The translations under genes were made by a program, and so were the position numbers. Shown in pieces: positions 918 to 12,603 of a DNA stretch of 32,050 bases. Numbering within the stretch: the stretch's first letter is position 1; the number at the start of each line of letters is the position of its first letter. Origin of the DNA: Nitrobacter sp. 62-13. Lineage in GTDB: Bacteria; Pseudomonadota; Alphaproteobacteria; Rhizobiales; Xanthobacteraceae. The stretch spans positions 1 to 32,050 of the forward strand of contig NZ_MKRN01000079.1 of NCBI RefSeq assembly GCF_001896955.1. Reading direction: 5' to 3'. A model generated the notes under the pieces. That model had not been told where the DNA came from. It did not search any database and was given only the letters and a program-made list of their open reading frames with translations.

Positions 918-1460
918 TTACATCCGTTCCGGTCCACGCCCGATCGCCGCGACGCCGGTTCGTGATACCTCGACAAGACCGATCGGCCGCATCAGGTCGA
1001 CAAACTGATTGATCTTCGAGGTGCCCCCGGTGATCTCGAACACGAAGCTCTCGTTGGTGGCATCGACCACGCGGGCGCGAAACACCTCCGCGAGCCGCAT
1101 CGCCTCGATGCGCTGGTCGCCCGAGCCCTTGACCTTGACCATCGCCAGTTCGCGCTCGATGGATTTGCCGGTCAGCGTCATGTCCACGACCTGGTAGACC
1201 GGGATCATGCGATCGAGCTGATGCTTGATCTGCTGGATCACCATCGGGGTGCCGGTGGTGACAATGGTGATGCGCGAGACGTGCTTCTGGCTTTCGGTCT
1301 CCGACACCGTGAGGCTTTCGATGTTGTAGCCGCGGCCGGAGAACAAGCCGATCACCCGGGCCAGCACGCCGGGCTCGTTGGCGACCAGCACCGACAGCGT
1401 ATGCGTCTCGTTCGGATCGTGACGCTCTTCGAGAAAATAGGCGGAAGCGGGCTGGTTCAT
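918..1460 (-). CDS. ilvN: Acetolactate synthase small (regulatory) subunit
   Basis: ACT-domain protein: THTLSVLVANEPGVLARVIGLFSGRGYNIESLTVSETE...SRITIVTTG. Start at 1460 (MNQPAS) or 1466 (MKMNQ). Confidence 0.95.
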   Translation of the reverse strand: MNQPASAYFLEERHDPNETHTLSVLVANEPGVLARVIGLFSGRGYNIESLTVSETESQKHVSRITIVTTGTPMVIQQIKHQLDRMIPVYQVVDMTLTGKSIERELAMVKVKGSGDQRIEAMRLAEVFRARVVDATNESFVFEITGGTSKINQFVDLMRPIGLVEVSRTGVAAIGRGPERM

Positions 1461-1484
1461 CTTCAAATCCTGTCACTCTCTTTC

Positions 1485-1525: not shown

Positions 1526-3304
1526 TCACACCAGCGCCTTGCCGCCGGCGAAGGCGGCCGCGGTCGCATCGTCATTGGCTTCCGCCGGCAACAGCATTTC
1601 GTTATGCGCCTTGCCGGACGGAATCATCGGGAAGCAGTTTTCCAGCGCCGCGACGCGGCAGTCGAACAACACCGGCTTTTTCACCGAGATCATTTCCTTG
1701 ATCGCGCCGTCAAGATCGGACGGCTTTGTCGTCTGGATCCCGACGCAGCCGAAGGCATCGGCGAGCTTGACGAAATCCGGCAGCGCTTCCGAATATGAAT
1801 GCGACAGGCGATTGCCGTGCAGCAACTGCTGCCACTGCCGCACCATGCCCATGTACTGGTTGTTGAGGATGAAGATCTTGATCGGAAGCTCGTGCTGAAC
1901 AGCCGTGGACATTTCCTGCATCGTCATCTGCACGGAGGCATCGCCAGCGATGTCGATGACAAGGCTGTCGCGATGCGCCACCTGCGCGCCGAGCGCGGCC
2001 GGCAGGCCGTACCCCATGGTGCCGAGGCCGCCCGAGGTCATCAGGCGGTGCGGCTCCTCGAAGCCGAAGAACTGCGCCGCCCACATCTGATGCTGGCCGA
2101 CTTCGGTGGTGATGTAGGTGTCCCGTCCGCGCGTCGCCTCGAACAGGCGCTGGATCGCGAACTGCGGCAGGATCACGTCGTTGTTCTTCTTGTAGGCCAG
2201 CGAGTTGCGCGCGCGCCAGCGTCCGATCTCGAACCACCACGGATCGATCTTCGGCGCCTTGCCTTCAGCCTTGAATGCCTGCAACAGGTCGGCCATGACG
2301 TTGCCGGCATCGCCGATGATCGGCACATCGACACGGATGTTCTTGTTGATCGACGATGGATCGATGTCGATGTGAATCTTCTTTGACCCCGGCGAGAACG
2401 CGTCGGTGCGCCCGGTAATGCGATCGTCGAAGCGCGCGCCGATGCACAGCATGACGTCGCAATCGTGCATCGCCATGTTGGCTTCATAGGTGCCGTGCAT
2501 ACCGAGCATGCCCAGCCAGTTCTTGCCGGAGGCCGGGTAGGCGCCGAGCCCCATCAGGGTCGAGGTGATCGGAAAGCCCGTGGCTTCGACCAGCGCGCGC
2601 AATGTCTTCGAGGCGTCGCGGCCGGAATTGATGATTCCGCCGCCGGTATAAATCACCGGCCGCTTGGCATTGACCAGCAGCGACACCGCCTTGCGGATCT
2701 GTCCGGCATCGCCCTTGACCTGAGGCTTATACGAGACATGGACGTCCGACTTGCGCGGCGGCGTATAGGTTCCGGTCGCGAACTGCACGTCCTTCGGCAC
2801 GTCGACAACGACAGGTCCGGGCCGGCCCGTGGTCGCCACGTAGAATGCCTCGTGCAGCACCTTGGCGAGATCGTCGACATTGCGCACCAGCCAATTGTGC
2901 TTGGTGCAGGGCCTGGTGATGCCGACGGTGTCGCATTCCTGAAACGCATCGTTTCCGATCAGGTGGGTCGGCACCTGGCCGGTGATGCAGACCAGCGGGA
3001 TCGAATCCATCAGCGCATCGGTCAGCGGCGTCACCATGTTGGTGGCGCCGGGGCCCGAGGTCACGAGCACGACGCCCGGCTTGCCGGTCGAGCGGGCGTA
3101 GCCTTCGGCCGCATGACCGGCGCCCTGCTCGTGCCGCACCAGGATATGTTCGATGTCGCTCTGCTGAAAGATCTCGTCATAGACCGGAAGCACCGCTCCG
3201 CCCGGATAGCCGAAAATGTGTTTCACGCCGTGATCGACGAGGGCGCGGACGATCATGGCCGCACCGGTCATCTGTTGGGGGGCGTGGCGTTTGCTGTCGC
3301 TCAT
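1526..3304 (-). CDS. ilvB: Acetolactate synthase large (catalytic) subunit
   Basis: ThDP-enzyme motifs: GYPGGAVLPVYDEI, HEQGAGHAAEGYAR, GDASVQMTMQEMSTAVQHELPIKIFILNNQYMGMVRQWQ. Start set at MSDSKRHAPQQMTGAAM (ATG 3304); the track ORF over-extends into the leader. Confidence 0.96.
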   Translation of the reverse strand: MSDSKRHAPQQMTGAAMIVRALVDHGVKHIFGYPGGAVLPVYDEIFQQSDIEHILVRHEQGAGHAAEGYARSTGKPGVVLVTSGPGATNMVTPLTDALMDSIPLVCITGQVPTHLIGNDAFQECDTVGITRPCTKHNWLVRNVDDLAKVLHEAFYVATTGRPGPVVVDVPKDVQFATGTYTPPRKSDVHVSYKPQVKGDAGQIRKAVSLLVNAKRPVIYTGGGIINSGRDASKTLRALVEATGFPITSTLMGLGAYPASGKNWLGMLGMHGTYEANMAMHDCDVMLCIGARFDDRITGRTDAFSPGSKKIHIDIDPSSINKNIRVDVPIIGDAGNVMADLLQAFKAEGKAPKIDPWWFEIGRWRARNSLAYKKNNDVILPQFAIQRLFEATRGRDTYITTEVGQHQMWAAQFFGFEEPHRLMTSGGLGTMGYGLPAALGAQVAHRDSLVIDIAGDASVQMTMQEMSTAVQHELPIKIFILNNQYMGMVRQWQQLLHGNRLSHSYSEALPDFVKLADAFGCVGIQTTKPSDLDGAIKEMISVKKPVLFDCRVAALENCFPMIPSGKAHNEMLLPAEANDDATAAAFAGGKALV

Positions 3305-3333
3305 GGTCGGCTCCGTCGGCTCCGGATCGTCGG

Positions 3334-3359
3334 AAATAAAAAAGGGCCTCTGAAGGCCC
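3334..3359 (-). terminator. Intrinsic terminator/attenuator hairpin upstream of ilvB
   Basis: Minus strand GGGCCT-TCAG-AGGCCC followed by TTTTTTATTT: perfect 6-bp GC stem plus T tract, about 30 nt before the ilvB start. Confidence 0.8.
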
Positions 3360-3389
3360 CCGGGCGCACCGCCTTGGATTCGGACGGCC

Positions 3390-3458
3390 TTAGCCGTCCC
3401 GGGCGGCGCTCCAGGGTACGACGATAAGGGATACCAGGTCGGTAACAAAATTACGCAT
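3390..3458 (-). CDS. Putative branched-chain amino acid leader peptide, MRNFVTDLVSLIVVPWSAARDG*
   Basis: 22 codons plus stop read by hand from ATG 3458 to TAA 3390. Seven Val/Leu/Ile residues, six of them in the run L-V-S-L-I-V-V. Followed by overlapping hairpins and a terminator before ilvB. Confidence 0.75.
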   Translation of the reverse strand: MRNFVTDLVSLIVVPWSAARDG

Positions 3459-3554
3459 TTTATCGCCAGAATTCCCAAAGGTTGCGCGGGTTATAGAGGC
3501 CGGATTCGCTGTCGTCAACCGATTTCAGGCTCAAACGGCCGAACTCCACGATGC

Positions 3555-4256
3555 TCACTTCGTCCTCTCGGCCGGACCGACGCAACTGGGGTAAGGAGCT
3601 CGTTCTCCAGGAATTATCGGGCAAAGCTTCAAAGGCCCGAGCTTGTTATAGCGGTCAGACCACTTTGCAACGTCCACGGGTATCGGCTCCCTGGAAGGAG
3701 CCGCCCGCTCGGCCCACTGCACAGTATAAACGTCAGCCACTCCTTTGATGACCACGATCAACGCCGTCTCGCTTGTCGTGCCCCTGGTCATTGGAGTCGC
3801 GCCGCAGGAAACAACAGCGGCGATCGCATCGAAGCCACTCACTTTGTGGTTGTTGATGGATTGCGCGCTGAACGAACCCGGACACGCGCGCTTGAAACCA
3901 CCGGCCATCGCGTCGAAGACGACTTTGGGGGTTAGGCCAGGTTTCGCAGCGAGGCCTTTTATGCCCGTAACCGTGATGATCTGTGTCCAGTGGTCTACCG
4001 TCTCACCGGTCAACACCGCTTCCCGAAGATAGGATTGCGGCTGGGCTTTTTCGAATGCGGTTGTAAATCCCGCCGGATAGCCCGTGCCCATCAACTGACT
4101 GAAAATCGGGGTGATCGTTGTAGCGGACAAATTCTTATGCGCCTGCTCGGCGCTGCCCGCGTATGCGACCGCGCACCCGCATACTATTGTCGCAGCCACC
4201 TTTGAGGGCGTCTTCAAAAGACTTGTCGTGGTCATCGCGGATTTCATCAGCTTCAT
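3555..4256 (-). CDS. Hypothetical secreted protein
   Basis: 233-aa ORF with a signal-peptide-like N-terminus (KVAATIVCGCAVAYAGSAEQA); no family recognised. Confidence 0.65.
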   Translation of the reverse strand: MKLMKSAMTTTSLLKTPSKVAATIVCGCAVAYAGSAEQAHKNLSATTITPIFSQLMGTGYPAGFTTAFEKAQPQSYLREAVLTGETVDHWTQIITVTGIKGLAAKPGLTPKVVFDAMAGGFKRACPGSFSAQSINNHKVSGFDAIAAVVSCGATPMTRGTTSETALIVVIKGVADVYTVQWAERAAPSREPIPVDVAKWSDRYNKLGPLKLCPIIPGERAPYPSCVGPAERTK

Positions 4257-11836: not shown

Positions 11837-12114
11837 GGCGTTTGGCGTTTTCGAGCTTGTCAGCTTGGCGTCCGACCGACTGGGCCGACAGCAGCGACTC
11901 GGGTCTTACCCGAATTATACCGGGAAACGGGATCGCGGCGGCAGGCGGATTTCGCCTCCATTCCCCAATATAGGTGAGGACTGCAACGGTAACGACGTCG
12001 GATTCGTCGAATCGGTGTCCGGCTCGATTTCCGCGCGGCGCTGACCGGAAGCGCGAAATATGCCCGCAAACACCTTTTTTCTTCAACCCTTGCAGACTAT
12101 ATTCAGCCTGCCGG

Positions 12115-12432
12115 TTCGCCGGCTATGGAAATAAATGGCCGTCGTAATAAACCATTCGGACCCGGGGGCAGTACCCGGCGCCTCCACCAGAGCCCGACTT
12201 TTGTCACCCATTGCGGGTTCCGGCGGGGGCGAAACAGGATCGACGAGGGCGTAAAGGGCTCGCTTTTTCTCGGTATGGTTCCGCCGTTATCGGGCTATGC
12301 AATAGTTGCAAACGACAACTATGCTCCGGTTGCTCAGGCTGCGTAACGCGGTTTGAAAGACCACTCTGAAGTCCTGATGGGTTAAGCTCCGTCAGGCGGG
12401 GTTCGGAGGCACCTGGCAACAGAAGCCTCCAC
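12115..12432 (+). ncRNA. ssrA: tmRNA, circularly permuted two-piece form (acceptor RNA then coding RNA)
   Basis: Acceptor piece: T arm CCGGG-GGCAGTA-CCCGG (12162-12178), acceptor 3' strand CGCCTCC (12179-12185), then A-CCA ending 12189. Coding piece starts GGGGGCGAAACAGGATCGACGAG at 12225; GGGGGCG pairs with CGCCTCC. Tag reading frame GCAAACGACAACTATGCTCCGGTTGCTCAGGCTGCGTAA (12308-12346) encodes ANDNYAPVAQAA*. 3' hairpin GGAGGC/GCCTCC 12405-12430. Outer ends approximate. Confidence 0.95.
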
Positions 12433-12603
12433 TATCATCATTCGCCGCTTGCTCGCCGGGCAGCGGCAAGAATTTCACAAGTCCGACCACACCATTGCTG
12501 ACCTGGCGCGAGCGCCGGAGTAGAATCGGCGAGGTCCGCGAGTCGGCTCCCATACGCTCGCAGCGGGTTTGTACGACTTCTGCGGAGGTGATTAGACCAA
12601 ACG

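Follow-up and report, generated by a model that had tools for sequence, protein, structure and literature searches.

The stretch of DNA analysed here, which we call the window, comprises 32,050 nucleotides from Nitrobacter sp. 62-13 (contig NZ_MKRN01000079.1). On its minus strand, the gene for the acetolactate synthase large subunit, ilvB, is followed by the gene for the small subunit (ilvN/ilvH), and an intrinsic terminator lies between a short leader ORF and ilvB, the first structural gene (Table 1). The two genes downstream of the leader make the amino acids that its control codons encode. A preliminary description of this DNA, made from the letters alone, had proposed a 22-codon leader peptide rich in Val, Leu and Ile, a GACGGC-TAAG-GCCGTC hairpin over its stop codon with an outer stem that could extend it, a terminator, and an ilvB start about 30 nt further on. 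All of these are present as described: the ORF reads MRNFVTDLVSLIVVPWSAARDG followed by a stop codon, the inner hairpin, the outer arms GCGCCGCC and GGCGGTGC and the terminator are in place, and the ATG of ilvB lies about 33 nt past the terminator U-tract. With G-T pairs added, the terminator stem given by the scan runs from 3361 to 3342.

Table 1. Features of the ilvBN leader region, in window coordinates and in the order in which they would be transcribed.
Feature	Position	Strand	Remarks and evidence
-35 element TTGACG	3513..3518	minus	conserved motif
-10 element TATAAC	3490..3495	minus	conserved motif
Leader ORF MRNFVTDLVSLIVVPWSAARDG and stop codon	3390..3458	minus	22 codons, ATG at 3458; sequence, conservation
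Val codon preceding the main control run	3444-3446	minus	
Main control-codon run, L V S L I V V	3417..3437	minus	conserved, rich in rare codons
Extension helix, 5' strand CCCTGG (codons P-W)	3411..3416	minus	clade-specific
Outer stem, 5' arm GCGCCGCC	3402..3409	minus	covariation
Inner stem, 5' arm GGACGGC	3393..3399	minus	stop codon in loop; covariation
Inner stem, 3' arm GCCGTCC	3382..3388	minus	covariation
Outer stem, 3' arm GGCGGTGC	3366..3373	minus	covariation
Extension helix, 3' strand CCGGGG	3358..3363	minus	overlaps terminator 5' arm
Intrinsic terminator GGGCCT-TCAG-AGGCCC-TTTTTT	3338..3359	minus	terminator scan, covariation
ilvB ribosome-binding site GGAG	3311..3314	minus	6 nt before ATG
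ilvB, acetolactate synthase large subunit	1526..3304	minus	ATG at 3304
ilvN/ilvH, acetolactate synthase small subunit	918..1466	minus	next gene after ilvB

The ilvB frame is open upstream to a TTG at 3478 (1526-3478, minus strand) and thus spans the leader, so that a gene caller might carry ilvB on across the attenuator. Upstream of the leader there is a 233-aa ORF (3555-4256, minus strand) without an NCBIfam match, and elsewhere in the window lies an alphaproteobacterial tmRNA (12071-12433, plus strand, 305 bits).

ORFs of this kind are not very rare by themselves. Within the window, 4 of 251 ATG ORFs of 10 to 45 codons contain a stretch with at least 6 of 7 codons for branched-chain amino acids (BCAA), a frequency that speaks for a chance ORF lying next to an ordinary terminator. 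The terminator is the sole terminator-like site in 3200..3800, and shuffled sequences averaged 0.6 such sites, so that the scan alone is weak proof. The fold of the leader gave a modest z-score of -2.36 against shuffles. Neither the ORF alone nor the fold alone would convince, and the case against chance is carried by comparison with relatives.

A leader peptide with a BCAA run was found in all 16 of the closest family relatives, where it begins about 140-230 nt before ilvB in the same layout. A covariance model built from these 16 leaders (R1) identified one copy each in 163 of 200 family genomes, and all 30 of the R1 loci checked were directly upstream of ilvB. Across Rhizobiales, a BCAA leader together with a terminator was present in 69 of 80 loci from named genomes, including those of Bradyrhizobium, Rhodopseudomonas, Rhizobium, Mesorhizobium and Sinorhizobium, and the codon run seen in the window is therefore conserved in relatives. 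Of 92 leaders, 86 have the stop codon within the inner hairpin loop, and in 69 the last control codon precedes the stop by 9 codons.

Covariation of the stems was analysed in two alignments, a plain sequence alignment of the 16 family leaders and an alignment of 73 leaders across the order. The result from the former carries more weight because the latter was fitted to the structure. In the plain alignment, 95.8% of the cells pair, with two-sided changes in 8 pairs; the covariation score was reached by none of 500 shuffles, and sliding the partners abolished the covariation. In the alignment of 73 leaders, all 21 pairs showed changes on both sides, 96.9% of the cells pair, compared with 31-52% when the partners were slid, and the 17 best pairs by mutual information were all within the proposed helices. 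For the Bradyrhizobium/Rhodopseudomonas-type clade by itself (the clade, below; 24 sequences), mutual information carried too much noise to be of use. Covariation is present in the outer stem, in the terminator and in the stem over the stop codon, which bears out the 1:2 and 3:4 stems drawn in the preliminary description. Because the leader is conserved and its stems covary, chance is excluded; conservation, covariation and synteny together make a chance ORF beside an ordinary terminator scarcely credible. The leader element is real and widely conserved.

The control codons are unusual in their composition. GTA accounts for 0.8% of the Val codons in three local proteins versus 42% in the leaders, and the corresponding values were 9% versus 41% for CTT and 8% versus 52% for ATT. 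Such rare control codons would fit a starvation sensor; PMC1183508 deals with the theory of control-codon sensitivity. The conservation of both codons and peptide is consistent with a leader that is translated.

A promoter resembling TTGAC-N16..18-TATAAC sits at a nearly fixed distance before the leader; 36 of 37 distinct clade sequences have it, compared with 2% of random stretches. A generic sigma-70 scan missed this promoter, as it requires T at the last position of the -10 element. The motif predicts a transcription start near 3483, about 25 nt before the leader. The preliminary description had tied its reading to where transcription begins, and the conserved motif does lie upstream of the leader; because it is conserved in the clade so far above background, the start of transcription very likely precedes the leader. 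Strong conservation in the clade extends to a block, CGCGCAACCTTTGGGAA (about 3472-3489, minus strand), that lies after the -10 element and ahead of the leader ATG.

Taken together, the leader, its codon bias, the promoter motif, the covarying hairpins, the terminator and the position before ilvB make it highly probable that the element is a ribosome-mediated transcription attenuator of ilvBN. The proposal of a functional ilvBN attenuator in the preliminary description is thus supported by the conserved BCAA run, the covarying stems and the upstream promoter. From the same features we infer the stalling of the ribosome, the switch itself, the choice of antiterminator pairing and the regulation by amino-acid supply, which would operate as follows. 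Transcription would begin shortly before the leader. With ample Val, Leu and Ile, the ribosome would translate as far as the stop codon, which the inner hairpin carries in its loop, and there cover the 5' half of the long hairpin; the terminator before ilvB would then form, and a short RNA would result. When Val, Leu or Ile is short, the ribosome would stall on the rare Val, Leu or Ile codons. The long hairpin, extended in the clade by CCC[U/A]GG:CCxGGG pairing into the 5' arm of the terminator, could then form first and hold the terminator open, and ilvBN would be transcribed.

The evidence for the extended hairpin comes from the clade, in which the outer stem is lengthened: the codons that directly follow the control run, CCC[U/A]GG, pair with CCxGGG, the Gs of which also belong to the terminator 5' arm. 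A compensatory change is seen in relatives, where CCCU:AGGG is swapped for CCCA:UGGG. The pairing energies of cognate partners were better than those of permuted partners (P = 0.0002; this permutation, like the others used here, does not remove relatedness). In nascent folds, the extended hairpin forms when the ribosome edge precedes the CCC[U/A]GG codons, and after the edge has moved beyond them the predicted probability of the terminator exceeds 0.9 in most members of the clade; at this passage it rises from 0.00 to 0.98 in one member (L012) and from about 0.5 to 0.97 in another (L006). Against the extended hairpin, the terminator prevails at equilibrium in many members even when the extension is left free (P about 0.65 in the window). 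Because the extension helix coevolves and the nascent folds switch at these codons, we prefer the extended long hairpin over a 2:3 pairing as the antiterminator of the clade, and give it an even chance of being right. A stall on the last Val codons would put CCCTGG under the ribosome, and the model therefore better suits stalls on earlier codons. Outside the clade, no coevolution of the extension helix was found. The terminator probability follows ribosome position in a consistent pattern within the clade, whereas it shows almost no switch in the other families, where no antiterminator was identified.

A classical trp-like switch would explain the same elements differently. On stalling, a separate 2:3 antiterminator would form, either the TAAGGCC:GGCCTT pairing of the preliminary description or one that uses the outer 3' arm, and the long hairpin would serve merely as the 1:2 protector. 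This scheme draws support from nascent folds, in which the terminator 5' arm can find an upstream partner if the ribosome edge stands 4-8 codons beyond the last control codon, a pairing seen in many members, other families included, and from the minimum-energy fold of the window, in which the long hairpin and the terminator can coexist. However, the TAAGGCC:GGCCTT pairing proved to be peculiar to the window, being absent from all the others of the 46 distinct clade leaders except a second copy of the window's own locus, and coevolution between these two segments was looked for in the clade leaders and not seen. Pairings of the stop loop and of the outer arm with the terminator 5' arm found no support, as neither coevolves (P 0.64 and 0.99), and across the 73 leaders mutual information singles out no pair of the 2:3 type. 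We therefore lean against the trp-like switch while regarding it as a serious possibility.

The leader drew no match from Rfam at gathering scores. The family RF02502 (Atu_C8), which has a gathering score of 50, matched the window leader below that value, over its full length (model 1-122), with 31.4 bits and an E value of 2e-4. Atu_C8 was found in 100 of 199 genomes of the order and in just 4 of 190 genomes of a class-wide sample; the model does not reach much beyond the order. It resembles the window leader in its position before ilvB, its BCAA leader ORF and its terminator, and differs in that Rfam files it as an sRNA and in that the window scores under the cut-off. Of the 30 Atu_C8 loci checked, 29 lie immediately before an ilvB-type gene, with BCAA leader ORFs present, and in named Rhizobium, Mesorhizobium and Sinorhizobium the family overlaps the R1 match. 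Atu_C8 therefore seems to represent the ilvB/ilvI attenuator in rhizobia, most likely as its terminated leader. Our literature search found no paper about the Atu_C8 RNA and none linking it to an attenuator; the original sRNA paper probably lies outside the literature searched, so the link may already be known.

The listing of RF02502 as an sRNA family raises the alternative that the element is mainly a trans-acting small RNA and that where it sits relative to ilvB is secondary. Action in trans by a terminated leader was shown for rnTrpL/peTrpL in Sinorhizobium (PMC7298713), and the element may have an additional role of this kind. Against a mainly trans-acting RNA stand the near-constant position of Atu_C8 before ilvB-type genes, with a BCAA leader ORF, and control codons that are both conserved and rare, and we consider it very unlikely.

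Some genomes contain second copies of Atu_C8 (G059:C1049:7949-8069, minus strand; G381:C67:78402-78521, plus strand), and that in G059 is just before a second acetolactate synthase gene. At one locus (L066 1501-1621; G323:C2:433741-433861, plus strand), an Atu_C8/ilv-type attenuator scoring 85 bits, with the leader MMIAIDMVVVGRRMGTAA, is not before ilvB. It lies after an apparent carB and before an apparent MFS transporter (both named by eye), and it is possible that the switch was recruited to a transporter. The same genome has a second, weaker copy of the attenuator.

A broader reading of the attenuator in the Bradyrhizobium/Rhodopseudomonas-type clade, which we put forward as speculative and rather doubtful, is that of a two-state switch. 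The long leader hairpin would itself be the antiterminator, an untranslated leader would allow read-through where the trp scheme has super-termination, and the terminated leader (the sRNA Atu_C8 elsewhere) would be a by-product or a dual-function RNA.

In the enterobacterial ilvBN and trp attenuators, the ribosome stalls on codons for the end product. The element in the window is likened to them by this mechanism, not by sequence, and differs from them in that the long hairpin of the clade itself overlaps the terminator. The preliminary description had taken the enterobacterial systems as its precedent; the nearest precedent is instead the alphaproteobacterial ilvB/ilvIH attenuator, as far as the citing papers describe it (PMC4117421; PMC1273637, PMC2573895). 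Leader-peptide attenuators of ilvB/ilvIH in alphaproteobacteria were predicted in 2004 by Vitreschak et al., whose work is known here through PMC1273637, which cites it as ilvB leader peptide, and PMC2573895, which counts the ilvIH leader of S. meliloti among cis elements of this type. As cited there, these attenuators share with the window element a BCAA leader peptide and an attenuator before ilvB/ilvI. The ilvBN leader of Caulobacter crescentus, studied in 1994 by Tarleton et al. and described in the citing paper PMC4117421, has tandem Ile and Val codons and a terminator avoided by ribosome pausing; Caulobacter belongs to a different order, and its leader is likened to that in the window by description, not by sequence. 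In Corynebacterium, a leader uORF likewise regulates the ilvBNC operon (PMC10272879, PMC11857589), and this likeness too, across phyla, is one of description, not of sequence.

The attenuator in the window thus belongs to a kind already described in related bacteria and is not a discovery. The modest additions made here are a probable identity for Atu_C8 and, as a better candidate for the antiterminator in the clade, the extended helix. For ilvBN, the analysis provides a well-supported regulatory annotation in a large clade. The two possible wirings of such a switch would differ in how a leader that lacks its start codon behaves. If Atu_C8 is the terminated leader of the attenuator, the annotation of these loci as sRNA genes would be corrected.
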